Source: Candidatus Methanoplasma glyptotermitis (GTDB lineage Archaea > Thermoplasmatota > Thermoplasmata > Methanomassiliicoccales > Methanomethylophilaceae). Taken from it: a stretch of 43,238 nt of DNA. A program made the position numbers and the translations under genes. The stretch spans positions 1 to 43,238 of the forward strand of contig JAIRYF010000060.1 of the NCBI GenBank assembly GCA_031267895.1, written 5' to 3'. Under the pieces are notes generated by a model, which was not told the DNA's origin, searched no databases, and was given only the letters and a program-made list of their open reading frames with translations. Shown here piece after piece: positions 23,547-41,713 of the stretch (positions within the stretch are counted from its first letter, which is position 1; every line of letters begins with the position of its first letter).

Positions 23547-24227
23547 TTAAATCAGATCCAAGAGCGAGGCGACGCTGTCGATAACGGGAATATCCGGATC
23601 CATCTCTGCCCAGTCTTCCAGAGAGGTCCAGCCTGTAAGAACGCCCATGAACCCGGCTCCCGAATCCCTTGCCGTCATCCAGTCTATCTTATGGTCTCCC
23701 AGAAAAAGAATCTCTTCGGGCTGCAATCCAAGGATATTTCCTAGATTGACCATCGCTTTGGGAGACGGTTTTGCTTCGTCTTCCGGAAAGTCGTCCCTGC
23801 CCACTACGGCATCGAAAATATCCGAAACATTGCTTCTCCTGAGTACATACTCGGCATACGAATGTCCGCCTCTTGTCAGAATTGCTGTTTTGTATCCTTT
23901 GTTTCTGAGAGCAAGAACGGTTTCGACCGCACCGTCAAACGGTTTAGAGCAATCCGCATATTCCATTTCTGTCCTTGTGGAACGGTCTGCGATTCTGTCC
24001 GGAAGGGTATCGATTTCTTTGCCTTTCCCGTTCTCCCTCAGCCATTTCATGCCGCTGTCCAATTCCGATTTCGGACCTCCGGTACGTATTATGCAGGACT
24101 CCGGAACTCCGGACTCAGAAAGTTCATCGAAAACGATATTGGCCAACTTCATATAATCCACCTTTGTGTCCATGAATGTGCTGTCCATGTCGAAGCTGAC
24201 GGCCTTATATTTCGGGTCCAATGACAT
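23547..24227 (-). CDS. HAD-family phosphatase (phosphoglycolate phosphatase-like)
   Basis: 226 residues with all four HAD motifs: motif I FDMDSTFMD (nucleophile and acid Asp near residue 16), motif II AILTRGG, motif III lysine in EAKPSPKAM, motif IV FLGDHKIDWMTA. A helical cap lies between motifs I and II, as in phosphoglycolate phosphatase and related Gph/PpaX enzymes. The substrate cannot be read from the sequence. The gene converges on the flavoprotein gene with a 21-base gap and has an AT-rich promoter at about 24240-24260. Confidence 0.88.
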   Translation of the reverse strand: MSLDPKYKAVSFDMDSTFMDTKVDYMKLANIVFDELSESGVPESCIIRTGGPKSELDSGMKWLRENGKGKEIDTLPDRIADRSTRTEMEYADCSKPFDGAVETVLALRNKGYKTAILTRGGHSYAEYVLRRSNVSDIFDAVVGRDDFPEDEAKPSPKAMVNLGNILGLQPEEILFLGDHKIDWMTARDSGAGFMGVLTGWTSLEDWAEMDPDIPVIDSVASLLDLI

Positions 24228-24351
24228 ACGGCACCCACTGTGATATTTTTTTATTAACTTTGGGATAAATAACGTTATGACCGAAAAGCGAGTTGTGAAT
24301 TCAAACTTGTTACAGTATGAGCAGCACGGCAGCTTTCATGGGAATAAAAGT

Positions 24352-24500
24352 TAGTATCCACCCTTCTGTTTCAGGCAGTATTCAACTGCGCGCTCTACCC
24401 GCCGGTCCCGGGCATTCATCCCGGCTGTATGAGCTTGCTCCGATGAGGTGTCGCCGTCGCATCAAATCCGTGGGAACGGAAATCAACTGTCGAGGTCAGA
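24352..24500 (-). pseudogene. Partial copy of the RNase P RNA gene (3' part)
   Basis: Reads on the minus strand. About 120 bases closely match the 3' part of the intact gene at 38156-38459 (GACGGCGACACC, GGAGCAAGCTCATACAGCCGGG, ATGAATGCCCGGGACCGG, CTGAAACAGAAGGG). The 5' half and the P1 strand are missing, and the extreme 3' end has diverged (GGGTGGATACTAA), so it cannot fold as RNase P RNA. It shares the flanking CTGACCTCGACAGTTGATT with the second partial copy at 25491-25656 but not with the intact gene. No other gene is seen between 24228 and 24549. Confidence 0.75.
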
Positions 24501-24549
24501 TTCAAAATAAACAGTAATCTTTATAGGCCGTCTCGGTGATGCTGAAGCC

Positions 24550-24870
24550 ATGGATCTGACATCTGAGAATAGAATACTCAGCTTCAAAGATATCTGTGAG
24601 ATAGTCGCACCCGTAGCAAAAGAGCACAGAGTACTCAGCATGTATCTATTCGGTTCAAGGGCAAGAGACGACGGGAACGACGAAAGTGATTTTGATTTCT
24701 GCGTAGCCGTTCCCGACGGGTACACACTGATGGATCTGGGGTCACTCCTCAATGACCTGGAGATTGCTTTGAAAAAAAAGGTGGACATTGTCTGTGAAGA
24801 TGATCTTCCCAGAAGACCGTCGTTCATGGAGGAAGTGATGCATGACCGCAGAGCAGTCTTTGAAGCGTGA
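24550..24870 (+). CDS. mntA: MNT-type nucleotidyltransferase antitoxin
   Basis: 106-residue minimal nucleotidyltransferase. It has the GSRARDDGNDESDFDF active-site motif (GSx10DxD) near residue 38 and a third acidic residue in KVDIVCEDD. In the type VII HepT/MntA toxin-antitoxin system the MntA protein AMPylates and silences the HEPN RNase toxin. Gene order (MNT before HEPN), overlap and sizes fit that system. TATA-like CTTTATAGG about 30 bases upstream suggests a leaderless start at this ATG. The pair lies between two partial RNase P RNA copies. Confidence 0.88.
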   Translation: MDLTSENRILSFKDICEIVAPVAKEHRVLSMYLFGSRARDDGNDESDFDFCVAVPDGYTLMDLGSLLNDLEIALKKKVDIVCEDDLPRRPSFMEEVMHDRRAVFEA

Positions 24871-25201
24871 TGCAGAGTATCTTGAGATTATCGTTGGATT
24901 TTGCGATGATATATGCGAACTGGTAGGTTTGCATGGTTCTGATGAAGAAGATTTCCATAAGATCTCACTTCAGTATGGGTGCATCTTCTCTTTGATACAG
25001 ATTGGAGAATATGTCAAACGTCTTTCGAAAACATTGATCTCTGAACACCCCAACGTTGATTGGGGAGCTGCAGCAAAGATGAGAGACTTTGTTGTTCATA
25101 ATTACATGGATGTAAACACTACAAGATTAAGATCAACAATACTCACGAACATTCCCTCGTTCAGAGAGAATTGTCAGCGTATTCTTAATTCAATCTCCTG
25201 A
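24842..25201 (+). CDS. hepT: HEPN-domain RNase toxin (HepT-like)
   Basis: 119-residue all-helical HEPN protein. The catalytic Rx4H motif is visible as RDFVVHNY near residue 83, as in HepT toxins that cut RNA. It follows the MNT gene with a 29-base overlap when the ATG at 24842 is used; GGAGGA lies 8 bases before it. A later TTG is possible. The two form a toxin-antitoxin or abortive-infection module, also known from defence islands. Confidence 0.87.
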   Translation: MTAEQSLKRDAEYLEIIVGFCDDICELVGLHGSDEEDFHKISLQYGCIFSLIQIGEYVKRLSKTLISEHPNVDWGAAAKMRDFVVHNYMDVNTTRLRSTILTNIPSFRENCQRILNSIS

Positions 25202-25490
25202 CCTTTTATCAATCACATAATATTGCCTGGCAGCGATCAACTGTATCCTCAACCATCCGGAGAAGTTCACGTCTCCCGCAGATCAAACAGACAGCCCGAA
25301 ACTAGATGAATGGGCAAGGAAGAGCGACGAGTCCCGCGGCAACAGGGTCAGGGTGATAAGGGCAGCGGCAGCCAAAACATCGTAGGACGTGTCACCGAAA
25401 AACGAATCGATCCCGCAGACGTTCCCAAAGCAGATGAACCGATGTTCCCGGCAGGAGCTGCACATAGTACCGCAGGTGTGGGTTAAAGAT
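25202..25490. other. Gene-free stretch with a coding-like remnant
   Basis: No complete gene. On the plus strand, about 25260-25387 reads as a hydrophilic fragment (SPKLDEWARKSDESRGNRVRVIRAAAAKTS) ending at TAG, without a start codon. It looks like debris of a lost gene between the HEPN gene and the second partial RNase P copy. Confidence 0.3.
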
Positions 25491-25656
25491 GTCAAGTCAT
25501 GATAGTACCCCCCCCCCCCTTCTGTTTCAGGTAGCATTCAACTGCGCGCTCTACCTGCCGGTCTCGGGCGTTCATCCCGGCCGTATGAGCTTGCTCCTAT
25601 GAGGTGTCGCCGTTGCATCAAATCCGTGGGAACGAAAATCAACTGTCGAGGTCAGA
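25491..25656 (-). pseudogene. Second partial copy of the RNase P RNA gene, with a G12 tract
   Basis: Same orientation and extent as the copy at 24352-24500. Here the exact RNase P 3' terminus is kept (GTACTATCATGACTTGAC on the minus strand), but the G run after ACAGAAG, 7 G in the intact gene, has grown to 12 (C at 25508-25519). The 5' half is absent. The two partial copies stand as direct repeats about 1.1 kb apart on either side of the MNT/HEPN pair. Confidence 0.78.
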
Positions 25657-25718
25657 ATACAAATGTATTTCAAAAATTCTGTAGATGAAGAGAACATGAG
25701 ATACAAGGATGAACATGT

Positions 25719-26260
25719 TTACAGGATAATTATCATCTGGTTAAGTTCATTGTCCAGTTTACCTATGTGTGTGAATCCACATTCTTTGTAATAATTGATC
25801 AATTCATCCTTGCAATCAAGTCTTATTACTCTGCACCCGATCGCATCGTAACTCTTTTCAAAGATCTTCAGGGCGTAATCCATCATTTCCTTTCCGAAAC
25901 CGTACTCGGTATCTTCGGCTCTTGCCAATTGTCCCAAAAGATATGATTGTGCGATGCCGTTGTTTTCATTCAGAAGTATATGTACGTCATGCGGTATATG
26001 GCCTCTGCGTTTCTTATCGACTTTGAAACATTTTATTGCCAGAGTGAAATAACCGCTGATCTCCACATTTCCGCCTAGTTCTCCTTCAATGCCAAATATG
26101 TTCCTGATATGCCTGCAGATTCGAATTCTATGGATTTTTCTTTCAGATATGATTCTGCGTCATGTTCTCTGAAAGCTACAAATGTTGATAAAAAGGACTT
26201 GGCTTCTGCCTCCCCCACCGCTTCAATGAATCTGCGAAGACTCAATATCGAAAAACTCAT
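25719..26260 (-). pseudogene. GNAT acetyltransferase, split by one frameshift
   Basis: The first frame (26260 down to 26075) encodes MSFSILSLRRFIEAVG, AKSFLSTFVAFREHDAESYL and GTYLAL, the start of a GNAT subfamily. It then ends KEN-TAG. One base shifted, the sequence goes on as EGELGGNVEISGYFTLAIK and through the acetyl-CoA region (SYLLGQLARAEDTEYGFGKEMM) to TAA at 25719. Joined near 26085 the protein is about 179 residues with no other break. It is either a recent pseudogene, a sequencing error or a frameshift-dependent gene. Acetyltransferases of this type with a small upstream partner often behave as toxin-antitoxin pairs. Confidence 0.75.
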
Positions 26261-26428
26261 TTAGAACGCAGGTCCCGATAAGTTTTTCGCCCTCCTCCGG
26301 GCAGCATCAACATCAACTGTCGATGTATAGGGTCCCCTCTCTTCAGCGTCCCTGAATGCTTGGACCATATTATCCAATTTCTCATCGGTGTCTATTACCA
26401 TCATTTCATAGAAAGACTTCGTTGCCAT
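26261..26428 (-). CDS. Small partner of the GNAT gene, possible antitoxin (55 residues)
   Basis: ATG 26428 to TAA 26261. The protein begins MATKSFYEMMVIDTDEKLDN, continues VQAFRDAEERGPYT and ends in a basic helix (AARRRAKNLSG). Its stop codon directly abuts the ATG of the GNAT gene, so the two are coupled. Small proteins of this style precede the same GNAT subfamily in Firmicutes, where an antitoxin role is suspected. GGGGTGAGAAAG supplies a ribosome site. Confidence 0.65.
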   Translation of the reverse strand: MATKSFYEMMVIDTDEKLDNMVQAFRDAEERGPYTSTVDVDAARRRAKNLSGPAF

Positions 26429-26757
26429 CTTTCTCACCCCTTGAGAAACAATATCGGCAGTACAAATGAATCACAAACACTCCATCCCGTCTTGGATAAT
26501 GTAATCCAAGTACCAATATGATACGTTCCCACTGATACGTAAACGTTCATAGTGTTATAAGAATGTGCCGAGTAGTAACGGAAAGGGACTTTTCGTGCAA
26601 CCCAGCACCTTTCCATATCATCTTCTCCCCTAGGTATTTGTCTTTGAAATCTTTCATAAATCCGAATTTTGCATTACCGTTCTTCTTCCGAGTCCATTCA
26701 TTGAATTCCTCATCGAATGTATAGTCGGAAAGGAGACGAAATGCTTTCGTAACGTCA
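26429..26757 (-). other. Stretch with coding-like remnants, no intact gene
   Basis: On the minus strand, from about 26757 to 26545, one frame reads continuously (FDEEFNEWTRKKNGNAKFGFM followed by KDFKDKYLGEKMIWKGAG) but has no start codon after the ABC permease stop. It is probably a truncated gene. A 60-residue frame at 26434-26616 overlaps it and looks spurious. Confidence 0.3.
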
Positions 26758-27555
26758 TTATTCTCTCCTGAGGGTCCTGCGTGAGAAGAACATACTTGCT
26801 CCGGTCATGACGAGTGCGAACGCTGTTATAACAATAAGGTCTCCGACCAGAGACAGACTCTGAACGGAGACCATCGAACTCATTCCGCCCCACGAATTTC
26901 GTATTGCATCTGCCGCATACGTCAGGGGGTTGGCGTTGGCAACTATCCTCAGAGCCTCCGGCAGTGCCGTCGTCGGAAACATCGCCCCCGATGCGAACAT
27001 CAGAGGCAGGTTCAGGAGCATGTTGATTCCCATCAGTGCTTCCTGATTCTTTATTATCAGGCCCAGAGCTGCGAATATGGATGAGAAGGTCATTGCTACG
27101 CAGACCACCGAAATAATTATGACTGTCAGACTCACCGCCGAGAGTCCTCCCGCATCCAGTCCGAGCAACAGTGCCATGACCAGCACTAAAAGTGACTGAA
27201 TGGCTGCCTTTACTGTGGTCGCAATGATCTTTGACAAAGGTATAACACCTCTCGGTATGGGTGCCGCCCTTACCTTTTCCAAAAATCCGAATCTGCGGTC
27301 CCATACCAAGGACATTCCGGCGGTCATGGATGCAGTGAGTGCCGTGACGACTATCATTCCTATGCAGAGGAAACTGAAATAGTCCAACTCCTGATCGAAT
27401 CCCCTCATCAGGCCGTCCATGGCGAAACCGAACAGTCCCAGCCATATAAGCGGCTGAGCTGCCATCATGAAAATCTGGATCTTGCTTCTGTACCAGTGTT
27501 TAAGCTCCCTTCCGACCAGCGCAAGAGTCTGGCTGACATACGTCCCTTCCCGCAC
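26758..27555 (-). CDS. ABC-2 type exporter permease
   Basis: 265-residue membrane protein with six hydrophobic segments and the ABC-2 pattern RAAPIPRGVIPLSKII in the cytoplasmic loop, as in DrrB/NodJ-type permeases. It forms an exporter with the ATPase encoded just upstream; drugs or lipids are typical substrates, but none can be named here. The frame is open to 27627 inside the ATPase gene, but GTG 27555 lies one base after the ATPase stop and behind AAGGAGGGG, so I use it. Confidence 0.86.
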   Translation of the reverse strand: MREGTYVSQTLALVGRELKHWYRSKIQIFMMAAQPLIWLGLFGFAMDGLMRGFDQELDYFSFLCIGMIVVTALTASMTAGMSLVWDRRFGFLEKVRAAPIPRGVIPLSKIIATTVKAAIQSLLVLVMALLLGLDAGGLSAVSLTVIIISVVCVAMTFSSIFAALGLIIKNQEALMGINMLLNLPLMFASGAMFPTTALPEALRIVANANPLTYAADAIRNSWGGMSSMVSVQSLSLVGDLIVITAFALVMTGASMFFSRRTLRRE

Positions 27556-27556
27556 C

Positions 27557-28561
27557 TCAGCCCCTCCTTCTGATGTTTTGAAGTTCCTGTTTGCGGATCT
27601 CGTGTCTGTTGGATCCCCTGTCCTCATCCCTCAGGGACTTTCCCGTGTACTTCAGAAACACCTCGTTGATGCTGGGCGGATGCAGGGATATGGATTCAAT
27701 CTTCCATCCTTCTCTGACAGATACGGCCAGGATATCTTTCTCAGTGCGTTCGCCGTCCTTTGTTTTGATGCAGTATCCGAACCCTTCCCTGACAGCACTT
27801 GAGACCCCGGCCATCTCCAAAATGGATCCGGACAGGTCCGTATCTTCACAGATGATCGCATTGATGATGTCTCCTCCGAGGGAGTCTTTAAGTTCCGCCG
27901 GGGTCCCGATGATTTTGATCTCACCCTCATCGATTATAGCTATCCTGTCGCACAGGGCATCGGCCTCTTCAAGATAGTGGGTGGTGAGGAAGACAGTCAT
28001 ATTGCTTTCTTCCTTCATTTTCCTGATGTATTCCCATATTATTTCTCTGGTCTGTATATCAAGTCCGAGCGTCGGTTCGTCCAGGAACAGCATTTTAGGA
28101 CGGTGTATCAGTCCTTCTGCCAACTCGAGTCTTTTCCTCATGCCCCCGGAGTATGTATCTACTCTTCTGTCCGCCGCTTCCTCCAGCTTCACCGTTCCCA
28201 GAAGTTCGTTGATCCTTTCTTCCGCGATCTTTCTGGGTACTCCGTAAAGATCGGCCTGAAGCCTCATGTTCTCTCTTCCGGAAAGTTCGTCGTCTGCGGT
28301 CAGCGACTGAGGGACCAGACCTATTGTTTTTCTCACGCTGTTTGCATTTTTAACGACATCTTCTCCGTCAAGCGTTACAGAACCCGACGTGGGCGTGAGA
28401 AGAGTGGTGATCATGGAAATGGTCGTGGATTTGCCGGCACCGTTTGGCCCAAGGAACCCGAATACTTCTCCTTCTTTAACGCTGAAAGAGATCCTGTTCA
28501 CGGCAAGCACATCTTTTTCGTATCTTTTGACGAGGTCTCTGACCTCTAGTATGTTGCTCAT
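27557..28561 (-). CDS. ABC exporter ATP-binding protein (DrrA-like)
   Basis: 334 residues. Walker A GPNGAGKST (near residue 39), Q-loop GLVPQSLTADDELSGREN, signature YSGGMRKRLELAEGL, Walker B MLFLDEPTLGLD, and the H-loop in FLTTHYLEEAD. The extra C-terminal ~90 residues with HPPSINEVFLKYTGKSLRD are typical of DrrA-type drug exporters. The ATG at 28561 overlaps the PadR stop by 4 bases. Confidence 0.92.
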   Translation of the reverse strand: MSNILEVRDLVKRYEKDVLAVNRISFSVKEGEVFGFLGPNGAGKSTTISMITTLLTPTSGSVTLDGEDVVKNANSVRKTIGLVPQSLTADDELSGRENMRLQADLYGVPRKIAEERINELLGTVKLEEAADRRVDTYSGGMRKRLELAEGLIHRPKMLFLDEPTLGLDIQTREIIWEYIRKMKEESNMTVFLTTHYLEEADALCDRIAIIDEGEIKIIGTPAELKDSLGGDIINAIICEDTDLSGSILEMAGVSSAVREGFGYCIKTKDGERTEKDILAVSVREGWKIESISLHPPSINEVFLKYTGKSLRDEDRGSNRHEIRKQELQNIRRRG

Positions 28562-29049
28562 TCTTTCTCACCGGCCACTCTCTCTATTGCTTCGTTGATC
28601 CTCAGAAGATCAGCTTCCAGCAGGTCGCGCGTTTCCGTCAGGGTTTTGAGTCTGTCAATCTTCGGCATCGAATTCACATCCGGAATTTCGGATGCTTCGA
28701 TACCCATCTCTTCGCATACTTCTACGATAACAGAAGTAAATCTCATCCTCATGGACGAGATCGCATTGAGAATCGGGAGGGCACTTATCAGCCATTCGGT
28801 GCCTTCTTCCGACATGAAATAGTATTCTTTGCCGCCTAAGTGCTCGGACACGAGCAGGCCCATATCCTGAAGTTTCTTTATCGCAGGATAGATCGCTCCG
28901 GTCTTGGGATCCCAAATACCTTTGAAATGCGCCCTCATATCTTTTATTATTCCGTATCCGTGCTTCTTGTCCTTTCTCACAGAGAGCAGGATCATTATCT
29001 GCACAGGACTGATCCTGTGGCCTTTGTATGACGGGCCGGGCGGTCTCAT
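28558..29049 (-). CDS. PadR-family transcriptional regulator
   Basis: 163 residues. N-terminal winged helix of the PadR type (ILLSVRKDKKHGYGIIKDM, GAIYPAIKKLQDMGLL) and a C-terminal helical dimerisation part with MPKIDRLKTLTETRDLLEADLLRI. First gene of the exporter operon, so it probably represses that operon and itself until an effector arrives. A candidate operator lies 27-56 bases upstream. Confidence 0.88.
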   Translation of the reverse strand: MRPPGPSYKGHRISPVQIMILLSVRKDKKHGYGIIKDMRAHFKGIWDPKTGAIYPAIKKLQDMGLLVSEHLGGKEYYFMSEEGTEWLISALPILNAISSMRMRFTSVIVEVCEEMGIEASEIPDVNSMPKIDRLKTLTETRDLLEADLLRINEAIERVAGEKE

Positions 29050-29075
29050 GTTTTCCTCCGAAGATCGTTTTTGAT

Positions 29076-29105
29076 ATATACTAGGTAATTATATACGCAG
29101 TATAT
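29076..29105. promoter_or_regulatory. Candidate PadR operator at the exporter promoter
   Basis: ATATACT (29076-29082) and AGTATAT (29099-29105) are perfect 7-bp inverted repeats with 16 bases between, overlapping the AT-rich promoter of the PadR gene. The spacing suits a dimer of a winged-helix protein. Confidence 0.45.
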
Positions 29106-29239
29106 TAATACTTATTTTAGACTGTCGCCCGGAATGATGTGTGGCCACCGGGCAGGTTCCGACGCCTCCTCAGGAAACAGTCGGGCTGACTTTTTTCGTA
29201 TCTGACTAAAATTTCGGATAGCCAAAATGTTATATATTA

Positions 29240-29255
29240 TTTAGGTAATCCTAAA
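29240..29255. promoter_or_regulatory. DtxR-like iron box before the first binding-protein gene
   Basis: TTTAGGTAATCCTAAA is a perfect 16-bp palindrome resembling the half-sites recognised by DtxR/MntR-type metal regulators (TTAGG...CCTAA). It lies just after TTATATATTATT and 10 bases before the ATG at 29266, a good place to block transcription when metal is plentiful. A related but less symmetric AAGGCAAATCTAAAAA stands at 36650-36664 before the second binding-protein gene. Confidence 0.5.
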
Positions 29256-29265
29256 AAAGATTCTT

Positions 29266-30224
29266 ATGAACAGTAAAATTTTGGCAGCCTTGGCCGTCGC
29301 GGTAATAGCAATCGCGGGGGGGGGGGGGCACTCGTCCTGCTGAGCAGTGACGACAGCGACAAAAATCAAATCGGGCCTCTGGAAGGTTGGCCGAGAGTGT
29401 ACACTGACGCCTCAGGACGCGAGGTCACTCTGGAGAAGCCATCCGAACGGACAGCCTTGATCTTCTTCCGCGGATTTGACTACGTATTCATGCTGGACGA
29501 GCCGCCCGTTGCATCCACCGAAGTAGCGGATGTCCTTAACGGATGGGCATCGCTGGAACCGTTTGCAAGCAAGTATGATATTATAGATGTAGGCTCGCAG
29601 ACAAGTCCCAATCTCGAGATGATTCTTGATGCTGAACCCGACCTCATAATCGTATACTCGGGAACATTCGATGCTATCGGCAGCCAGTTGGAAAAGATCG
29701 CCACCACCGTTACCGTAAGCAGCTATGGCGATGATTGGGTAACGCCGTTCATCGAATACGGGAAAATATTCGGTAAGGAGGACAGAGCGCAGGAAGAGAT
29801 CGACCGTATAAACGGTCTCCTGAGAGACAGCGCAGAGGAACTGTCCGCATATTCCGATAAAACATTCGGTTTCATGAGATGCGACGGAAAGACCTTCTCC
29901 GTCTATAACATCGAATATGTTTTCAGCACCGATAACGGTCTGGGTCTGACCGCACCGGAGGGGTTGCTTGCCAAGAACAGGCAGTCGATAGACCTGGAGG
30001 GACTGGCTCAGTTCAACCCTGATTTCCTGTTCCTTTACGATGTCGCGGATACTTCCGAGCATGAAGACTTCATGGCAGATCTGAGTTCAGATTCTGTGTG
30101 GAATGCCCTCACGAGTGTAAAAGACGGAAACGTGTTCCTGCTGGATCGCTCCGTGTTCTCCGGCGGGCCGCTCTCCATAGAGTACGGAACAGAAGCAATC
30201 TCCGAATGCCTGAGAGGAACGTGA
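29266..30224 (+). CDS. Iron/cobalamin-type ABC substrate-binding protein, out of frame at a G13 tract
   Basis: Periplasmic-type binding protein of the BtuF/FepB family. ATG 29266 encodes a signal sequence (MNSKILAALAVAVIAIA) that runs into 13 G and stops at TGA 29341. One base over, ALVLLSSDDSDKN and the mature domain (GWPRVYTDASGREVTLEKPSERTALI-like start, LEMILDAEPDLIIVYSG) continue to 30224. A tract of 14 or 11 G would give one uninterrupted ~320-residue protein similar in layout to the one at 36674-37633. Without that, only a leaderless fragment from GTG 29397 could be made, without a signal. It is the first gene of the importer/nitrogenase-like block. Confidence 0.8.
29316..29328 (+). 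repeat. Run of 13 G in the signal-sequence region
   Basis: The tract encodes the glycines at the end of the signal sequence of the binding protein. Its length sets the frame: 11 or 14 G are in frame, 13 is not. Confidence 0.8.
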
Positions 30225-30392
30225 GGCATTCGCACTCACCTGTCCGGGAGACCGATCGGTTCTTCTGGACAGACCCGCGGATCAGTCGATCGCCGGTTCG
30301 ATCGCGAAACCGGCATCGTACCTTTCCGGCGCGGATGCGTGCCGGAAAACCCGTACGATAGGATCGCGGCTTGACGAAGAAGGGGAGAGCAC

Positions 30393-31439
30393 TTGACAGA
30401 CAACGAAGAGTTTGCGAACGGTCAGCCTCCTGTCAGAAACAAGAGCCGGGCAGGATTGACCGGCATGATCCTGTCGGTCGGTCTGCTGTCTCTGTTCTTT
30501 CTCATGGCATTCTCAATAACGAAGGGAGCTGTAAAGATACCGCTTTCTGCAGTATGGGATGCTTTTTTCAATTTCAACGGTAATGATATCCAGCACCTGA
30601 TTGTGATCGACATCCGTCTCCCGCGCGCGATAGCCAGCGCGCTCGTAGGTGCGGCCTTTGCTGTGGCGGGAGCTATAATGCAGGGCACAACCCGCAATCC
30701 TCTGGCGGATTCCGGACTTATGGGTCTGAACGCGGGTGCGGGATTTGCTCTGGCGATGTGTTATGCCTTCCTCCCCGGACTGAGCTACATGCGGATCATA
30801 ATCGCTTCGTTTCTGGGGGCTGCTCTGGGCGCGGCGCTCGTAAACGGAATAGCATCTTTCCGCCTCGGCGGGTCCACTCCTACCAGGCTGGTGCTGGCCG
30901 GAGCCGCGGTCAGTATGTTCCTGATCGCACTGAGTCAGGGCATAGCCATATATTTTGAAGTGGCGCAGGATGTGATGTTCTGGACAGTCGGAGGCGTTTC
31001 CGGCTCCACGTGGGAACAGGTCGGTCTCATCGCCCCTGTGATACTGATCGCTCTTGCTCTTTCGGTGGCCCTTTCCAGATCCGTGTCCGTTCTCAGTCTG
31101 GGAGAGGATGTGGCAAAGGGACTGGGAGCGAACACAGCTCTGATAGGAGTCTTTTGCTCCGTTATCGTTCTTATTCTCGCAGGAACCTCCGTCGCAGTCG
31201 TGGGTGCCGTGGGGTTCGTAGGGTTGGTGGTCCCGCATTTTGTCAGATATCTTGTGGGAGTGGACTACAGATTCATAATCCCGTGCTCTGCCGTGCTGGG
31301 CGCATTGCTGGTGGTCGCAGCGGATCTGTTCGCCAGAAACCTTAATCCTCCCTTCGAAACGCCGCTCGGGGCAACGATTGCCCTTATCGGAGTTCCGTTC
31401 TTCCTTCATCTGGCGCGCAGACAAAAGAGGGCGGTCTGA
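30393..31439 (+). CDS. FecCD/BtuC-type ABC permease (first)
   Basis: 348 residues with about nine to ten hydrophobic segments and the FecCD signatures IRLPRAIASALVGAAFAVAGAIMQ, NPLADSGLMGLNAGAGFA, and VGFVGLVVPHFVRYLVG. Importers of this class take up ferric chelates, haem or cobalamin. TTG 30393 follows GGGGAGAG and is the likely start. The last base overlaps the first base of the next permease (TGATG). A 168-base spacer after the binding-protein gene holds GC-rich inverted repeats but no gene. Confidence 0.9.
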   Translation: MTDNEEFANGQPPVRNKSRAGLTGMILSVGLLSLFFLMAFSITKGAVKIPLSAVWDAFFNFNGNDIQHLIVIDIRLPRAIASALVGAAFAVAGAIMQGTTRNPLADSGLMGLNAGAGFALAMCYAFLPGLSYMRIIIASFLGAALGAALVNGIASFRLGGSTPTRLVLAGAAVSMFLIALSQGIAIYFEVAQDVMFWTVGGVSGSTWEQVGLIAPVILIALALSVALSRSVSVLSLGEDVAKGLGANTALIGVFCSVIVLILAGTSVAVVGAVGFVGLVVPHFVRYLVGVDYRFIIPCSAVLGALLVVAADLFARNLNPPFETPLGATIALIGVPFFLHLARRQKRAV

Positions 31440-32506
31440 TGACGGGATCCCGGCACAGCGGCAATCTGACCGAACAACAGGAAAAGAACGAGGAATATAA
31501 AAGAAAAAGAGAACTTCGAAATCTGACGATCATCGTCATATGCGCGGTTGTGCTGGCGGCGGTCGTATTCGTGTGCGCAAATATCGGTTACATTAAATTC
31601 TCTATACCGGACATTTTCAGGATATTTACCGGCGGCGGAACCAACCGTGAAAATTTGGTAGTGTTTGAATTCAGGATGCCTCGCATAATTGTATCAATTC
31701 TGGCGGGTGCCGCGCTGGCACTGTCAGGGTGTATACTGCAGGGAGTTGTAAGGAACGATCTGGCGGATCCGGGATTGCTGGGGATCAATGCCGGGGCGGG
31801 ACTGCTGGTGATCCTGTACGTCATGTTCTTTGGGACGCAATCCTTCCTTTCGGTGTTCACACTCCCGTTCTTGGCACTGATAGGTGCCGGGGTCGCTACT
31901 GCGGCCGTCTACGCACTGGCATTCAAAAGGGGAGAGGGAGTAGCCCCTATGCGGCTGATACTCACGGGAGTGGCGATACAGGCGGGTATAGCCGCTCTGA
32001 CGACCGTTCTGGTGGTGAAACTCGATGACGATCAGTTTGACTTCGTGGCCCGTTGGCAGGCGGGCAGCATATGGGGTTCCAGCTGGGATTATGTTATTGC
32101 GCTGCTTCCATGGCTGCTTATACTCGTTCCGTACGTTATGTCTAAATTCCGCGTGCTTGACGTACTGAACCTGGGAGACAGTGTGGCGGGAAGCCTCGGC
32201 GCATCTGTGGAGAAAGAGAGAAGAGGTCTTCTGGCAGCAGCGGCAGGACTGGCGGCATCCGCTGTGGCGATCGGCGGGAACATAAGTTTTGTGGGGTTGA
32301 TAGCTCCGCATCTGGGACGCAGGCTGGTAGGTCCGAGGCACCTGGTCCTGCTGCCGACATGCGCACTTCTGGGTGCGGTGCTGGTTTCTGTGGCTGATAC
32401 AATTGCAAGAGTGATAGTGGAACCTTCGGAAATACCTACAGGAATTGTAGTGGCGATCGTCGGTGCGCCGTATTTCCTGTATCTGCTGATGAGAAATAAA
32501 CATTGA
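31439..32506 (+). CDS. FecCD/BtuC-type ABC permease (second)
   Basis: 355 residues. After a charged 25-residue N-terminal extension come about nine membrane segments with FRMPRIIVSILAGAALALSGCILQG, RNDLADPGLLGINAGAG and ISFVGLIAPHLGRRLVG. It is a clear paralogue of the preceding permease, so the importer is probably a heterodimer, as in FecCD or FepDG. ATG 31439 overlaps the previous stop. Confidence 0.9.
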   Translation: MTGSRHSGNLTEQQEKNEEYKRKRELRNLTIIVICAVVLAAVVFVCANIGYIKFSIPDIFRIFTGGGTNRENLVVFEFRMPRIIVSILAGAALALSGCILQGVVRNDLADPGLLGINAGAGLLVILYVMFFGTQSFLSVFTLPFLALIGAGVATAAVYALAFKRGEGVAPMRLILTGVAIQAGIAALTTVLVVKLDDDQFDFVARWQAGSIWGSSWDYVIALLPWLLILVPYVMSKFRVLDVLNLGDSVAGSLGASVEKERRGLLAAAAGLAASAVAIGGNISFVGLIAPHLGRRLVGPRHLVLLPTCALLGAVLVSVADTIARVIVEPSEIPTGIVVAIVGAPYFLYLLMRNKH

Positions 32507-32521
32507 AAGGAGGGGTGAAAT

Positions 32522-33316
32522 ACGGAAAGCATTTCGACGAAGAATCTGGCAGTCTCATATGAAGACAATCATGTGGTGGAGAACATGGATATGAGCATAC
32601 CTCATGGGAAGATAACTGCCATCATAGGACCGAACGGGTGCGGAAAGTCCACCGTGCTGAAGGCCGTGGGCAGACTGCTGAAACCCAGAGGGGGCATGGT
32701 ATACCTGAACGGGAACGATATACAAAATCTGTCGACGAGGGAGATCGCCCAGAAGATGGCAATCCTTCCTCAGTCTCCTCAGTCTCCTCCCGGTCTGACG
32801 GTAGGCGAACTTGTGACATACGGACGCTTTCCCCATCAGCACGGATTCGGCAAACTGAAGCCTGACGACAAAAAGATCATAATGTGGGCACTTGAAGTCA
32901 CCAAACTTACGGAATTCGAGAATACGGCTGTGGATAATCTTTCCGGAGGTCAGCGTCAGAGAGTCTGGATAGCTATGGCACTGGCTCAGCAGACCGAACT
33001 GATTCTTTTAGACGAGCCCACCACATATCTGGACCTGGCCTACCAGCTGGAAGTACTGGAACTGCTGCACGGACTCAACAGAGAACAGATGTGTACGATC
33101 GTAATGGTCCTGCATGATCTGAATCTGGCCGCTCGGTTCGCCGATCACATGATAGCAATCCGAGACGGCGATGTGATCTGCCACGGGCCGCCGGAGCAGG
33201 TGATGACCGAGAATGTGCTGAGGACAACATTCCGCATAGATGCCAAGATAATTACGGAACCGCACACTGGTCGCCCCGCATGCATATCGTACGATTTGAT
33301 CAAAGAGAACAACTGA
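32522..33316 (+). CDS. FepC/BtuD-type ABC ATPase with an ACG in the start position
   Basis: ATPase of the importer. Walker A GPNGCGKST, Q-loop LPQSPQSPPG, signature NLSGGQRQRVW, Walker B LILLDEPTTYLD, H-loop VLHDLN. The first normal start codon in frame is GTG 32573, but that would remove the first strand and the A-loop (NLAVSYED) that stacks on ATP. These residues are present in frame upstream, beginning with ACG at 32522, which lies 8 bases after AAAGGAGG where an ATG is expected. So it either starts at ACG, or a T-to-C change has crippled the start. Length from ACG is 264 residues, normal for the family. Confidence 0.88.
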   Translation, partial: TESISTKNLAVSYEDNHVVENMDMSIPHGKITAIIGPNGCGKSTVLKAVGRLLKPRGGMVYLNGNDIQNLSTREIAQKMAILPQSPQSPPGLTVGELVTYGRFPHQHGFGKLKPDDKKIIMWALEVTKLTEFENTAVDNLSGGQRQRVWIAMALAQQTELILLDEPTTYLDLAYQLEVLELLHGLNREQMCTIVMVLHDLNLAARFADHMIAIRDGDVICHGPPEQVMTENVLRTTFRIDAKIITEPHTGRPACISYDLIKENN

Positions 33317-33331
33317 ACAGGAGGTGTTAAT

Positions 33332-34087
33332 ATCAGAAAGATTGCAATATACGGAAAAGGGGGCATAGGCAAATCCACCACCGCCTCTAACATATCGTCC
33401 GCGTGGGCATCCATGGGCCTGAAAGTCATGCAGATAGGATGCGATCCGAAAGCGGATTCCACACGCAGTCTGACGGGCGGCAGGAATATCAGGACGGTAC
33501 TGGACACTCTGAGGGAAAAAGGAGACGCGGAACTCAACGACATCGTTTTCGAAAGCTGTTCCGGAGTCCTGTGTGTAGAGTCCGGGGGACCGATTCCGGG
33601 GGTGGGCTGCGCGGGACGGGGCATAATCACCGCCTTCGAAAAATTGGAGGAGCTGGATGCTTACGGGATATACCGTCCGGATATTGTTCTGTATGATGTG
33701 CTCGGCGATGTGGTATGCGGAGGATTCGCCATGCCCATAAGGGACGGTTACGCCGATGAGGTCTGCATAGTGACATCGGGCGAGATGATGTCGCTGTACG
33801 CCGCTTCGAATATAGCCGGGGCAGTGAAGGGTTTCGGCAGCAGAGGATACGCCTCCCTGAGAGGGCTGATACTGAATTCCAAGAACATAGAAGGAGAGGA
33901 AGAGATCGTCGACAGGGCCGCGGAGGAAATAGGAACTTCTGTGATATACCGTCTTCCGCGGGATCCGGCCGTACAGCTGGCGGAAGCAGAAGGAAAGACC
34001 GTGACCGAGGCCTTTCCGGATTCGGATATGGCGTCCCGATACAGGGACTTGGCACATATTTTGATGAAAGAAGGTGAAAGACATTGA
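33332..34087 (+). CDS. NifH-like nitrogenase reductase family ATPase, ATC in the start position
   Basis: Homodimeric Fe-protein-type ATPase that passes low-potential electrons to a NifDK-like partner. It has the P-loop GKGGIGKST (residues 8-16), [11 protein letters not shown], and both cluster cysteines: Cys93 in PGVGCAGRG and Cys129 in [11 protein letters not shown], so a bridging [4Fe-4S] cluster should form. The first normal start, ATG 33413, would delete the P-loop. The homologous N terminus [12 protein letters not shown] is preceded by ATC (33332), 7 bases after GGAGG. It closely resembles NifH, BchL and CfbC; the sequence alone does not say which substrate is served. Confidence 0.9.
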
Positions 34088-35355
34088 ATGAACTCGGACA
34101 CCTGAAACGGCTGTCTTCGGTAAAGACAAACAGCTGCGTCAAATTCCTTACACCTGCGGCTTTTCCGGGCAACCATTGTCCGTTACACAGGGCACTGGCC
34201 CTCTGTGCGAATGTCAGAGGGATATCCACGCTGGTAGTGGGAACGCCGGAATGCGGCATATACAGCAGAAATATCATAGAGATGTCGCGGCAGAAAGGCT
34301 GCGAATAGCATTGGATGTATGTTCTCGATCAGAATGAGGTGGTGTTCGGATGCCGGAAAGGACTGGTCGCCGCCGTTAAAGAAATGGACCGCTCCGGGGC
34401 GGAGGCAGTCATGCTGATATCAACATGCATTCCGGAGGTAATAGGCGAAGATTTGGAATGCATGATCCGCGAAATGCAGCCTGATATCAAAGCGAAACTG
34501 AGTATCGTCAGGATCGGACACTTCAAGTGCAACAGCCATCCTTCAGGTATCTGGAAGACATTGGTCGCCTACGGAGACCTTATGGAAGATGCAGATACCC
34601 GTTCCGATACGGTCAATGTGCTGGGAAGGGGTCCGGATGGAGATCATCCGCCCATGCCGAAACTGCTGAAAGAACTGAGCGACAGGGGATTCAGACTGCG
34701 CTTCCTGGCACCCGGATCCGGCATAGATGATTTCATTGCGGCACCCGATGCCTCGCTGAATCTTGTGGTATCTCAGTTCATGAATCCTTTGGCGGATATG
34801 ATGAGTCAGAGATACGGAATATCTGCCGTGAGCCTTCACGAGACCTATGACGTCGAAGGCATTGATCTTCTGCACAGTTCCGTGGCGGATGCGCTGAATA
34901 TCTCCTGGGACAGTGAATTCAAAGAACAGAGAGAAAAGGCTGCCGCACTTCAAAAGCAGGCGGCGGATGTATTCAGAGGCACGCAGTTCGTTATGACCCG
35001 CGAGAACATGCTGATGCCCCTGCCGCTGGCCGCGTATCTGTCGGAACTCGGAATGATCCCAGCCCTGATCCACATGGAAGAGTATTATCCCGATGATAAG
35101 AAATGGGCAAAAGTTCTGATCGAAAAGGGGCATGATCCGCTGGTCTGCCACATGGTGAACGAGGAGACGGATGCGAAAGCGATCGAACTGGTCGGTCCGG
35201 ACATATCTTTCGGAGAGATACCGAGGAGTTCCGGAAAGATACGGTGCGTCTGCGATATGCAGGACCTCTACGGGTGCATCGGATACGAACGTACGATTGC
35301 TCTTCTGGAGAGGATGCTGACCGTTCTGAACCGCAGGAACGGTACGGAGGCGTGA
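34084..35355 (+). CDS. NifD-like subunit of a nitrogenase-like reductase, with an in-frame TAG
   Basis: Catalytic-type subunit. TTG 34084 overlaps the NifH-like stop. After 74 residues TAG (34306-34308) interrupts the frame, but it goes on as [19 protein letters not shown] and the two pieces together match one NifD-like chain of 423 residues. In this lineage UAG can encode pyrrolysine (residue 75 here). Three cysteines fit the P-cluster-side ligands of NifD: Cys32 (HCPLH), Cys57 (PECGIY), Cys115 ([12 protein letters not shown]). The FeMo-cofactor cysteine is absent: the matching stretch reads [11 protein letters not shown]. So it is not a nitrogenase; the closest analogies are DPOR, COR and CfbD. 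Confidence 0.85.
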
Positions 35356-35357
35356 AT

Positions 35358-36590
35358 ATGGGACTCTGCAGATTCAGGCCTCCGATGTCGGGAAGAATGG
35401 GTATCCTTTGGACGCTGGCATCCCTGAAGGATGCGGCGGCGGTCGAATACGGATGCATGGGGCACATGATGTACGGCAGAGTATTTCTGAACCGTGCGGG
35501 ACTGTCAGAGGGTGCAAGACTGTATTCGACGCACATAGACGAAACGGACATATCGATGGGAGACACCAAAAGACTTGACCGTGTCATCTGCGAAATAATA
35601 TCGAACGACAGACCGAAAGCAGTGTTTCTGCTGCCCTCCTCTGTTCCGATGGTTATCGGCACAGATCTTGCGGCCTTAAGCCGCGAACTGCAGCCGGAAT
35701 ATCCGGACGTGCCGATCATTCCTTTCGGGCGGGGGTCTTTCGATGTTCACGGATGCGACGGCGTCAGGGACGCGCTCACGACCCTGGCCGAGACCCTGCC
35801 TGAGGATACAGGGATCGATCCGGATCCGAAATTCAACATAATCGGCTCATGTGCAGACATGTTCAGATTCGGTGCGGACGCTCGGGAGACCGTACGGATA
35901 ATGAGAGGCGCTTTTGGTCTGAATCCTCTCTGTATCATGACATCGGATGCGTCCGTTGATGATATAAGGAAAATGGGAGGCGCACGTGTCAATCTGGTTA
36001 TGCGCAGAGAGGGAGAAAAAGCCGCAGCATGTCTGAATAAAAGATTCGGAACCCCCTGTGTATCAGGCCGTCCCTACGGTGTTGAAGGAACTCTTGAATG
36101 GATCGAAGCCGTCGCAGAGGCTCTCGGCATCTCTCCGGATCAGGAGTTCATCAGATCTGAGAAAACGGAATGTCTGCGCAGATTGGCTTATGCGGCACCG
36201 ATGGTCAGACACATCCTGAGGTCTCATCCGGACGAAGCGGCGGTCTCTTTGGGAGGCCATGCCGATGTTGTGAAGGGGATTCTCGGATACGCTGTCGGCG
36301 AAGTGGGGCTGAAGAAAGGAGCATGCTGGTGCGACTGCCCCGGCATGGCTTCCGAAGATATACCGTATCTTTCGGAAAACGAATGGACAGAGGCGGTGCG
36401 TCCGTACGGGAACGGGTTGCTTATGGCGAACGCAGAAGTTCTGATGCACTTCGGCTGCAATCAGAATCTCCAGATATCCAATCCGGACACCCGATGGAGG
36501 GTAAATCCTTACGAACCGCCGTTTGTCGGATTCAGAGGTGCACTGAACCTGGCGGACCTCTGGTTCAATGCTATGCTGGAGAAGAACTGA
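35358..36590 (+). CDS. NifK-like subunit of the nitrogenase-like reductase
   Basis: 410 residues. ATG 35358 follows GGAGGCGTGA; the frame is open upstream inside the NifD-like gene, but that extension reads as junk. The chain has the NifD/K fold with Cys4 (GLCRFRPP) and Cys33 (YGCMGH), the latter at the site of the middle NifK P-cluster cysteine. The third site is serine (LLPSSVPMVIGTDL, residues 94-95, against STTC...EVIGDDL in NifK). A single [4Fe-4S] cluster between subunits, as in DPOR, is therefore more likely than an 8Fe P-cluster. The C-terminal half holds CWCDCPG and HFGCNQNLQ, extra cysteines that could matter for the substrate site. Confidence 0.82.
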   Translation: MGLCRFRPPMSGRMGILWTLASLKDAAAVEYGCMGHMMYGRVFLNRAGLSEGARLYSTHIDETDISMGDTKRLDRVICEIISNDRPKAVFLLPSSVPMVIGTDLAALSRELQPEYPDVPIIPFGRGSFDVHGCDGVRDALTTLAETLPEDTGIDPDPKFNIIGSCADMFRFGADARETVRIMRGAFGLNPLCIMTSDASVDDIRKMGGARVNLVMRREGEKAAACLNKRFGTPCVSGRPYGVEGTLEWIEAVAEALGISPDQEFIRSEKTECLRRLAYAAPMVRHILRSHPDEAAVSLGGHADVVKGILGYAVGEVGLKKGACWCDCPGMASEDIPYLSENEWTEAVRPYGNGLLMANAEVLMHFGCNQNLQISNPDTRWRVNPYEPPFVGFRGALNLADLWFNAMLEKN

Positions 36591-36673
36591 CGGATGTGGC
36601 GGACGGATACCGAAAACAAATTAAAAACAACGATTTAAATATAAAAATAAGGCAAATCTAAAAAGTGATACAT

Positions 36674-37633
36674 ATGAACAAAATATATGCGCTGGTAATT
36701 GCAGCAGTCATCATAGCCACAGGGTGTGCGGCAGCTGTGCTGATCAGAGAGAACGGTAACGGCAATGAGACTTCAACGGAAGACGGAGAAGGATGGCCGA
36801 GAATAATCACGGATGCAGGCGGAAATGTTGTAGAATTGGAGAAAAAACCTGAGCGGATAGCACTTCTCCACACAGTATATCTGGAATATCTGCTGGCTTT
36901 GGGTGTCGTACCCGCAGCATCGGCCGGAGCCTCTGTGGGGACGGCTGCAGATGCGGTGAATACATGGGCTACGCTTGAAAGTTACAGAGACAGCACAGAA
37001 AACATAATCGATTTGGGCAGTGCAAGAGAACTCAGTCTGGAGGCAATCCTGGATTCTGATCCGGATGTGATCATCACATTCGTGGGGCATGCCGGCGTAG
37101 ATATCATATATGACAGGCTGGTCATGATCGCTCCGGTCGTTTTGATGAATTACTCGGACACCTGGCAGGAGCAGATGAAAGATCTTGCCGAGATAGTAGG
37201 CAAAGAATCCGAAGCCCTGAAAGTTATAGAAGAAATAGAAGAGATCGTCTATTCTGCAAAAAATACGCTGAGTTCGAAGGACAAAACATTCGCAATATTC
37301 AGGACAGGCGGGGGAAAATCATTCATCACCCGCGGGGATGCAGGTTATTACGAGATGTTCGGACTCAAGGCACCGCAGGGATGGCCGACAGAGATGGGTC
37401 CCGTTCTTACGCTGGAGGCCGTGGCCGGAATGAATCCCGACTATATCGTTTTCCAAGACACCCTGTCTGCGTCAAAGATGTTTGTTGAATCCCAAGAGGC
37501 TTTTGCCACATGGGGTGCTCTCGAAGCCGTGAAAAACAATAATGTCTTTTTCTTTGATGACTCTCTGAATTCCTTGGGGCCTCTGACTCTGAAACTGACG
37601 GCGCAATTGCTGCTTGATGTGTATTCGGAGTGA
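36674..37633 (+). CDS. Iron/cobalamin-type ABC substrate-binding protein (second)
   Basis: About 319 residues. Signal segment KIYALVIAAVIIATGCAAAVLI with a cysteine that could be lipidated, an acidic linker, then a BtuF/FepB-type domain (GWPRIITDAGGNVVELEKKPERIALL, LEAILDSDPDVIITFVGHAG). A GTG nine bases upstream is possible, but ATG 36674 gives the better signal sequence. It is the intact counterpart of the frameshifted binding protein at 29266, so the importer may have two alternative receptors. It has its own AT-rich promoter with a DtxR-like sequence. Confidence 0.88.
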   Translation: MNKIYALVIAAVIIATGCAAAVLIRENGNGNETSTEDGEGWPRIITDAGGNVVELEKKPERIALLHTVYLEYLLALGVVPAASAGASVGTAADAVNTWATLESYRDSTENIIDLGSARELSLEAILDSDPDVIITFVGHAGVDIIYDRLVMIAPVVLMNYSDTWQEQMKDLAEIVGKESEALKVIEEIEEIVYSAKNTLSSKDKTFAIFRTGGGKSFITRGDAGYYEMFGLKAPQGWPTEMGPVLTLEAVAGMNPDYIVFQDTLSASKMFVESQEAFATWGALEAVKNNNVFFFDDSLNSLGPLTLKLTAQLLLDVYSE

Positions 37634-37647
37634 TACGTAAACATAAC

Positions 37648-37677
37648 CGGACTCTGCATCTCCGTACGCAGAGTCCG
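37648..37677 (+). terminator. Terminator after the second binding-protein gene
   Basis: CGGACTCTGC (37648-37657) and GCAGAGTCCG (37668-37677) pair perfectly over 10 bp around a 10-base loop, followed by TTCAATCTTTTAT. It closes the importer/nitrogenase-like block 15 bases after the last stop codon. Confidence 0.7.
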
Positions 37678-38155
37678 TTCAATCTTTTATCCGAGGTCCG
37701 GCGGCGCAGCCCCGCCCTTTAGGGAACGGCCGCCGATGCGGGGCTTGTTATCAAAAATTCGGTACTCAGAACCGGGCGCAGATACACAGACAACGAAGAG
37801 GTCTTGGCATTGGCCGGGAAAATGTATCCGGAGGATACTGAGTAATCGTGTTCAGCGGGAAGGCACACACGGACACCGAATGCCGAAATGTTGACGGACT
37901 TTATTTGTCCATCCGTTTGGATAGGACGTATCGGAAATTGTCACAGTAGGCATCCGTGCGGTCGGAACATAAGAGACCTCTTAAGATGGTCGGAGAATAA
38001 AGTGATCAGTCCGGTGTGAACGGAACGGCTATTGCCATTGTGCGACCGTAAAACGATGTCAGAAAAGCGATACAGACAGCGGATGCTGTGCAAAAGTATA
38101 TGACAGAACTACGCGGTTATGGCTTTAGTCGCTATTTTAAGACGGAATAAGTAAA
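37678..38155. other. Gene-free stretch with possible remnant
   Basis: No intact gene. A GC-rich inverted repeat (AGCCCCGC ... GCGGGGCT) lies at about 37711-37746. A short plus-strand frame with no start codon ends at about 37845 (RTGRRYTDNEEVLALAGKMYPEDTE), coding-like and probably a gene fragment. Confidence 0.3.
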
Positions 38156-38459
38156 AGTGTCAAGTCATGATAGTACCCCCCCTTCTGTTTCAGGTAGCAT
38201 TCAACTGCGCGCTCTACCCGCCGGTCCCGGGCATTCATCCCGGCTGTATGAGCTTGCTCCGATGAGGTGTCGCCGTTTCATCAAATCCTTGGGAACGTCA
38301 CTGTCAGCAGATCATCCTTAACCAAGGCTGTGTCGTTTCTGGGCCCTTGCCAAAGCTCTCGCCTTACCGGATTTCCCGGTTCATCTTGCCCGCGGAGGAG
38401 GGAAGTTCCTCAGCCGGACCGAAGTCCTACCGTCGGCTACCCTTCATCTCTTGACACCG
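38156..38459 (-). ncRNA. rnpB: RNase P RNA
   Basis: Catalytic RNA that trims tRNA 5' leaders. Read on the minus strand, the ends GTGTCAAG (38457-38450) and CTTGACAC (38164-38157) form a perfect 8-bp P1 helix. Conserved archaeal RNase P blocks follow in order: GAGGAACTTCC (38411-38401), GGCAAGGGCCCAGAAACGACAC, ATCTGCTGACAG, GAAACGGCGACACC, CGGAGCAAGCTCATACAG, CGGGATGAATGCCCGGG and, near the 3' end, ACAGAAGGGGGGGTAC, which pairs with the GAGGAA block as P4. Length about 302 bases is normal. Exact ends are uncertain by a few bases. Confidence 0.87.
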
Positions 38460-38485: not shown

Positions 38486-38887
38486 TCAGCGGTAGGTTAC
38501 TCGTACGAGACGACAGATCTGTCTTTATTTTCGTCCGGTCTGTCAGTATCAGCAGTCCGATCTTCAGATGATCTTCATACAATTGATTGCTCCGAACCGA
38601 GGAATATCTCGTAACCCCAACCCCTCCGGCACAATATCCGTTACTTTGATAATGTGCACTATCCCGTCCTATATCGTTGGAGGATGACCTCCTTCTGCGC
38701 ATGCTATTCCCATCCCGGGACTCCCCTTCTTTGAACAGCAGGCTGTCCCCGCGGGAGCAAAATGTCAGAAAGAGTTAATCTTTACCTATGGTTTCACCAT
38801 AGCATCATAATAAGTGTTTATATATACCTATAAAAACATGCTACGGTGAGCTATGTTCGATAAAAATGGTTTGAGTGATGAGAGAAA
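38486..38887. other. Gene-free stretch
   Basis: No convincing gene. A 91-residue minus-strand frame (38427-38702) runs into the RNase P RNA and is unlikely to be real. A CTATGG/CCATAG hairpin lies at 38788-38804, followed by an AT-rich stretch (TTTATATATACC) that may be the promoter for the broken frame at 38888. Confidence 0.35.
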
Positions 38888-40498: not shown

Positions 40499-41713
40499 TC
40501 ATTCCGTCAGAAAATCGATCACATTCACGATTCTTATGCCGTCTATGTTCTTGATAGGATATCTGTCTAAAGTGACAATAGTTTTTGGATGATTATCATC
40601 TATCGACCGCAGCGCACCGAGTTCCCTCTCTTTTGTTTTGGCATCCGCGATACTCATCGAAATTTGGAAGTAATGAATGTCTGATCCTTCAGTTGCCATG
40701 AAATCCACCTCGTGCCCATTCACAGACAACACCGCCGCATTCCCGTACCTGTACATCAGTTCCATGAACACAATATTCTCAAGGATGCCGTCCAGATCCG
40801 TATCGCGGAAACCGATCCTCTCGTTTCTGATTCCTATGTCGCATGCATAGTATTTGTCTGATGTGCGAAGGTATTCCTTCGTTTTGCTGTCAAATCTTTT
40901 CGCCTTGTAAAAAAGGAATGCCGATTCCAGAAATCCGATGTAGTTATCCACAGTCTCTGCGGACGTTTTGATGTTCTTGTTCCCCAAATATCCGACAATG
41001 TTTTTTACGGATGTTCTGTCGCCGATATTTTTCATCAGGAAACGCGATATGTTTGAGAGCAGAGGAGCATTTCTGACTTCCTTTCTTTCAATCACATCTT
41101 TTTCATATACTGTGGCATATGTTCCTTCCAGCAGAATTGATACCAAATCTCTTCTTTCTCCGGCCATTAACGCAACTGCAGGAAGTCCTCCGTATCGTAT
41201 GTACTCGCTGAATTTCGACTCTGTCGATTCTTTCGGACCGTACGTTTCTCTGAACAGAAGATATTCGCTGAATGCCAGAGGATATACCGGGATCTCGATA
41301 TACCTTCCTGAAAGTTTGGTTGCTATCTCCGAAGAAAGCATCTTTGAATTAGATCCGGTGATGTAGACATCCGCACCGGATATGCGCAATGATTCAACCG
41401 CCCTCTCCCATTCGGGGATGTTCTGCACTTCGTCTATAAATATATACGTCCCCTTTTCAGGTTTCATTGAATCTTTGATGATATTCATCAGCTGAAAGTG
41501 CGTTTCTATCGTTACTTCTGTCTCATCGTCCAGATTTATATGGAAGACCCTTTCCGGAGAGACACCCGAAGATCTTATCTCATCTCTAAACATCTCCATG
41601 AGCGTAGATTTCCCGCATCTCCTCATGCCTGTGATCGTCTTTATAACAGGCAGATCGCGGGCCGAACGGAGCATGTCAAGATAGTGATCCCTCGGGATGC
41701 GGATATCTTTCAT
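40499..41713 (-). CDS. AAA ATPase with DUF4143 domain
   Basis: 404 residues. N-terminal AAA_14-type ATPase: Walker A GMRRCGKST (near residue 29), Walker B YIFIDEVQ, sensor YITGSNSKML. The C-terminal DUF4143 part contains YACDIGIRN and GHEVDFMATEGSDIHYFQISMSI, a PD-(D/E)xK-like nuclease pattern. The family is abundant and mobile in archaea and gut anaerobes; its function is unsettled, with suggestions of a defence or toxin-like role. It stands alone, with an AT-rich promoter at about 41720-41750. Confidence 0.88.
   Translation of the reverse strand: MKDIRIPRDHYLDMLRSARDLPVIKTITGMRRCGKSTLMEMFRDEIRSSGVSPERVFHINLDDETEVTIETHFQLMNIIKDSMKPEKGTYIFIDEVQNIPEWERAVESLRISGADVYITGSNSKMLSSEIATKLSGRYIEIPVYPLAFSEYLLFRETYGPKESTESKFSEYIRYGGLPAVALMAGERRDLVSILLEGTYATVYEKDVIERKEVRNAPLLSNISRFLMKNIGDRTSVKNIVGYLGNKNIKTSAETVDNYIGFLESAFLFYKAKRFDSKTKEYLRTSDKYYACDIGIRNERIGFRDTDLDGILENIVFMELMYRYGNAAVLSVNGHEVDFMATEGSDIHYFQISMSIADAKTKERELGALRSIDDNHPKTIVTLDRYPIKNIDGIRIVNVIDFLTE

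Follow-up and report, generated by a model that had tools for sequence, protein, structure and literature searches.

IS1634-type ends adjoin two partial copies of the RNase P RNA gene around a mntA–hepT pair in Candidatus Methanoplasma glyptotermitis

The DNA considered here is a stretch of 43,238 nucleotides (‘the window’) from Candidatus Methanoplasma glyptotermitis, and makes up the whole of one contig (C47; JAIRYF010000060.1) in an assembly of 72 contigs and 1.72 Mb that is estimated to be 98% complete. Its gene content suggests a methylotrophic methanogen of the Methanomassiliicoccales kind. The gene for RNase P RNA, rnpB, lies intact at 38162-38452 on the minus strand; it is of the archaeal type, and matches model RF00373 over its full length (1-288; 193.5 bits, E = 3e-56). 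In four sister species (G002, G007, G008 and G012), rnpB is followed directly on its 3' side by a gene for a HAD hydrolase, found here at 23547-24227 on the minus strand. Between the two genes, in this genome only, are 13.9 kb of DNA (24270-38141) with toxin–antitoxin (TA) pairs and ABC transporter, iron-uptake and nif-like genes. The uninterrupted rnpB–HAD site of the relatives is compatible with any mechanism of insertion. Other DNA occupies the same spot in G005 (purine genes), G015 (a surface protein) and G014 (a phage-antirepressor-like gene), and nif-like genes lie downstream of rnpB in G011. The genes that adjoin the 5' side of rnpB in the sisters (TetR–Rrf2–cysK–isc) occur here on another contig, C63, which carries no rnpB remnant beside them.

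Several other features of the window may be recorded. The iron-uptake and nif-like genes (29397-37633) encode binding proteins, FecCD permeases, a FecA-type ATPase, a NifH-like protein and two nitrogenase-component-1-like proteins; the cluster downstream of rnpB in G011 is a different one, in the opposite orientation, with a NifH that is 49% identical. A 210-nt stretch upstream of rnpB (38587-38796) has an 86% identical counterpart on contig C69. An AAA_14/DUF4143 ATPase encoded at 40499-41713, on the minus strand, matches the PADLOC candidate defence family PDC-S01 (E = 1.5e-142), and coding sequence at 8561-9454 contains nine 132-nt direct repeats in register, spaced mostly 69 or 135 nt apart.

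Near the HAD gene, within the 13.9 kb, are two further pieces of rnpB, and these are the subject of this report. ‘Copy 1’ (24352-24478, minus strand) comprises the 3' half of the gene without the last part of its 3' end, and is 94.4% identical to the intact gene. ‘Copy 2’ (about 25484-25634, minus strand) includes the 3' end and some 10 nt of 3' flank, matching rnpB and its flank down to 25484, at 93.8% identity. An independent Infernal search recovered both fragments, with E = 5e-10 (copy 1) and 9e-7, so they are not chance matches. They lie on the same strand as the intact gene, 1156 bp apart, as direct repeats that stay in register (24358-24508 and 25514-25664), and the order of the locus is thus intact rnpB, 12.5 kb, fragment, 1 kb, fragment, HAD, all in direct orientation. 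Both begin at one common position of rnpB; their interiors are rnpB sequence, with no open frame of note. The RNA parts of the two copies are 88.9% identical, and the distances among the three rnpB segments are nearly star-like. No such fragments were found in any other congener, by searches that included Infernal with RF00373, nor, in particular, beside HAD or in the downstream DNA searched in G005, G011, G014 and G015. The first-pass annotation described this locus as a MNT/HEPN pair framed by direct repeats of the rnpB 3' half, and this is confirmed by RF00373, by Infernal and by comparison of the repeats. It also pointed to a flank, CTGACCTCGACAGTTGATT, that the copies share and that is absent as such from intact rnpB; this, too, is correct. 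As it anticipated, the segment is missing from all the sisters that were examined; the remainder of the surrounding 13.9 kb, however, is missing along with it.

The pair itself consists of a gene for a MntA-type nucleotidyltransferase antitoxin (24550-24870, plus strand; PF18765, E = 7e-12; PF01909, E = 7e-10) and one for a HepT-type HEPN RNase toxin (24842-25201, plus strand; PF01934, E = 6e-14). The motifs that define active HepT/MntA pairs, GSX10DXD and RX4HXY (PMC7641770), are intact in both, as GSRARDDGNDESDFD in the translated antitoxin and as RDFVVHNY in the toxin. A PF01909 gene with the former motif beside a PF01934 gene with the latter is the arrangement of class I HepT/MntA systems, a class marked also by RNase activity that AMP transfer silences. 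Neither protein reaches its curated NCBIfam equivalog cut-off. Beyond copy 2 (25719-26440, minus strand) is a probable GNAT-type TA pair, the toxin frame of which is broken (open frames 25719-26066 and 26075-26260).

What the copies share as a flank is a terminal inverted repeat (TIR), that of an insertion sequence (IS) of the IS1634 family that has multiplied in this species. When copy 2 is searched against its own genome, it returns the three rnpB places and some 44 short matches that cover the flank only; placed side by side, these read CCTGACCTCGACAGTTGATTT, followed by several different interiors. As a pattern with up to two mismatches allowed, the TIR occurs at 37 sites in this genome, compared with none for the reversed pattern used as control and with one weak site (two mismatches) across 16 congeners. 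An IS with these ends, complete but split, is present on contig C69, with its tips at L089:2880 and 6555 and a 5-bp duplication, ATAAA; its transposase gene is interrupted by a second IS of the same family, and the halves match the IS1634 model NF033559 with E = 6e-29 and 7e-19, one of them passing the curated cut-off. A further member of the wider set of IS1634-type miniature elements (MITEs), beginning CCTGACCTAGACAGTTGG and 90% identical to one on contig C65, lies elsewhere in the window, at 42785-42971.

Which side of the TIR is the inside is fixed by a palindromic 53-bp MITE on contig C30, in which CCTGACCTCGACAGTTGATTT reads inward from both tips. The outer end is the tip, CCTGACC. In copy 1, the TIR occupies 24479-24500 (minus strand), with CTGACCTCGACAGTTGATTT matching exactly at 24480-24499, and its tip, at 24500, points right, toward mntA; in copy 2, it occupies 25635-25656 (minus strand), with the exact motif at 25636-25655, and the tip, at 25656, also points right. 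In both copies, then, the tip is directed away from the rnpB piece, and the RNA piece lies on the inside of the element end. Homology between the copies ends exactly at the tip, and the sequences beyond the tips are unrelated. On the inner side, the IS interior beside the tip reads TTGATTTTCRTTCCC in some copies, and rnpB at the junction reads CGTTCCCAAGG, so the chimera was joined across a microhomology, CGTTCCC. The copies share not only the TIR but two changes close to the junction, CACGG and GATGC, that are found neither in intact rnpB nor in its closest sister sequence. The TIR–rnpB3' chimera therefore arose once.

Whether a whole element can be recognized depends on the other end. For copy 1, the sequence from 24306 (CTTGTTACAGTATGA) can be aligned, with small gaps, to the left end of the IS, CTTGAGTTCGACAGTTGA, which suggests a putative, degenerate left end, CTTGTTACAGTATGAGC (24306-24330, plus strand). 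It is bordered at 24300-24305 by TTCAAA, an exact 6-bp match to 24501-24506 on the far side of the tip, and the two may be the left and right copies of a target duplication. Duplications of the IS1634 family are typically AT-rich and 5-6 bp long (PMC2266710). Copy 1 may thus be a complete MITE of 195 bp (24306-24500). When the flanks were shuffled, a 5-bp duplication together with an end at least as good arose at a rate of about 0.004, in a post hoc test, and an exact duplicated 6-mer alone has a chance of 0.04. Were copy 1 the product of transposition, the unoccupied site would read ...GAGTTGTGAA-TTCAAA-ATAAACAG...; a search of relatives for such a site was uninformative, since their mntA loci share only the promoter with that of the window. 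No recognizable left end or target duplication was found for copy 2.

We consider it moderately probable that a small, non-autonomous unit of the IS1634 family—a MITE, or a MITE end—has captured part of rnpB, and that the fragments form its interior. The inner side of an IS1634-type end would have been joined, through the heptamer CGTTCCC, to the 3' half of the lineage's own rnpB, and the resulting chimera would then have been copied to give copies 1 and 2, both within the species-specific insertion zone between rnpB and HAD. Movement would have been by transposase supplied in trans, a step that, like the capture, we infer. The exact right-hand TIR in both copies, the presence in the genome of an IS with the same end and the lack of a transposase gene in the copies themselves are all in keeping with a MITE, and the proposal that rnpB was picked up by a mobile element fits with a flank that proves to be an IS tip with the rnpB piece inside it. 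Several observations tell against the MITE reading. Copy 2 has no recognizable left end or duplication; that of copy 1 is degenerate, and the test of it was post hoc. There are just two copies, close together and oriented like rnpB, which suits duplication without transposition as well. Both reach, or nearly reach, the 3' end of the RNA, an outcome not predicted by random capture. A 3'-end copy without an IS1634 TIR occurs, moreover, in another genome, described below.

The companion proposal, that the mobile element carried the TA module, finds no support. The pair is not enclosed by the TIR tips, and the segment has differing outer flanks, so the pair is best read as a neighbour: mntA–hepT is probably an independent resident of the insertion zone that happens to lie between the two copies. 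A composite transposon spanning 24306-25656 was rejected on the same mismatch, TTCAAA on one side and ATACAA on the other. At three of the six hepT loci of the genome (on contigs C47, C13 and C23), an IS1634-type TIR is no more than about 0.6 kb away, against an expectation of about 4% per locus if the 37 TIR sites were evenly spaced over 1.7 Mb. The association is thus closer than even spacing would give, though variable regions are where hepT genes and TIRs alike accumulate. Two other arrangements were also rejected: a long target duplication made by IS1634-type insertion into rnpB, as in each copy the tip faces away from the rnpB piece, and a tandem duplication through CGTTCCC that included a shared cargo, as the two intervals share no sequence.

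Three other explanations deserve to be weighed. The chimera might have formed once near rnpB and been duplicated locally, by homologous or illegitimate recombination and without transposition, unrelated genes being inserted later. We regard this as rather unlikely: two copies only, in the same orientation and 1156 bp apart, and nearly star-like distances in a repeat-rich region are what it would lead one to expect, but sequence outside the tips is unrelated, and a boundary exactly at the tip is a prediction of transposition, not of random duplication. Much less credible, indeed scarcely so, is that the fragments are retrocopies, copied through RNA from the 3' end of RNase P RNA. The three fragments known from two genomes are all truncated at the 5' side and run to, or nearly to, the 3' end of the RNA; those of the window, however, start at an IS end, and copy 2 retains at least 10 nt of 3' flank, possibly outside the RNA.

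The remaining explanation, improbable in our judgement, is site-specific integration, in which rnpB served as the target. Two tandem elements would have entered the 3' half of rnpB, the gene being regenerated at 38 kb and att fragments left at 25.5 and 24.4 kb, with the integrase since lost or acting in trans. Three rnpB 3' halves in direct orientation, ending at HAD, the ancestral neighbour, have the look of such a history, as does the single rnpB position at which both fragments begin, and copy 1 does lie near HAD. About 80 bp of other DNA intervene, however, and the HAD side retains its own ancestral flank, GGGATAAA, while copy 1 has a second, similar piece; copy 1 is thus not simply the left-over 3' end of rnpB. 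A search with PF00589 found no integrase in the 43-kb window, the four matches of the genome being on contigs C48, C52, C54 and C72. The supposed arm of the element is an IS end present at 37 sites rather than an att arm; G005, G014 and G015 have DNA at the same spot but no rnpB remnant beside HAD; and the 5' neighbour of rnpB in the sisters is on another contig here. The idea of rnpB as an integration target is thus not supported at this locus, and a review of archaeal tyrosine recombinases leaves RNase P unmentioned as a target (PMC8371274).

What keeps that idea alive, at low probability, is a second genome. When RF00373 was applied to 147 genomes of the order, extra fragments turned up only in the present genome and in G110, of another genus, and a direct scan for 3'-end repeats of some 1.36 Mb downstream of rnpB, at 85 loci, identified the same two. 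On G110 contig C173 (L116), intact rnpB (549-844) is followed 2.45 kb downstream by an exact, 80-nt repeat of its 3' end (3297-3376). A defence pair, AbiLi/AbiLii (RloA/RloB-like), lies between the two, and a GNAT-type TA pair, similar to that of the window, follows just after the repeat (3457-4302); a related GNAT frame is found near rnpB in G012. No IS1634 TIR was found bordering the G110 repeat and no integrase in the G110 genome; its HAD gene is elsewhere, with no rnpB remnant beside it. With the assembly 67% complete and in about 180 contigs, the repeat could be an artefact. It concerns one of about 84 other loci, and the explanation given for the window does not account for it. We judge it improbable, to the same degree as integration, that small TA and defence cassettes lacking an integrase (mntA–hepT here, AbiL in G110) land repeatedly at the 3' end of rnpB in at least two genera of this archaeal order, each cassette being bounded by a direct repeat of that end. 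In the other genomes with a HAD motif 0.5-3.3 kb from rnpB, mostly housekeeping genes lie in between, and so we do not claim a defence hotspot. Should the G110 repeat stem from this process or one akin to it, the region directly downstream of rnpB would merit attention as a site at which methanogen-related archaea take in defence and TA genes.

On this reading, the wider lesson of the locus is that an apparent att-site signature, with 3' fragments of an RNA gene flanking a TA pair, can come from the capture by IS ends of part of an essential RNA gene. Such loci would be misread by methods that infer integrative islands from displaced 3' fragments of RNA genes. In the open-access papers searched, we found no instance of an IS or MITE capturing part of an RNase P RNA gene. 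Neither rnpB 3' ends nor the TIR turned up in viral contigs, and named genomes yielded no match to the TIR–rnpB junction.

It remains to set the locus beside the systems that it resembles. Like islands in tRNA and tmRNA genes, it shows inserted genes flanked by directly oriented 3' pieces of an RNA gene; unlike them, it has no PF00589 integrase, and the common flank is an IS end. Its TA pair is that of the HepT/MntA (HEPN/MNT, type VII) systems, with the PF01934/PF01909 combination and both motifs (PMC7641770), and apart from scores below the equivalog cut-offs it is ordinary. Two members of the IS1634 family generate repeats of 8-514 bp, the long, variable duplications of IS1549 and IS1634 (PMC2266710), and here, too, long direct repeats lie near an element of that family; those duplications, however, abut the tips on the outside, whereas the repeated rnpB is inside the tip, and hence the repeats are not target duplications. 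With the IS and MITEs of the IS1634 family in general, the copies share the TIR sequence, the orientation of the tip and a family IS in the same genome; duplications of the expected kind are ATAAA at the full IS and, putatively, TTCAAA at copy 1. They differ in what the end encloses, the 3' half of a catalytic RNA gene of the host taking the place of IS sequence.
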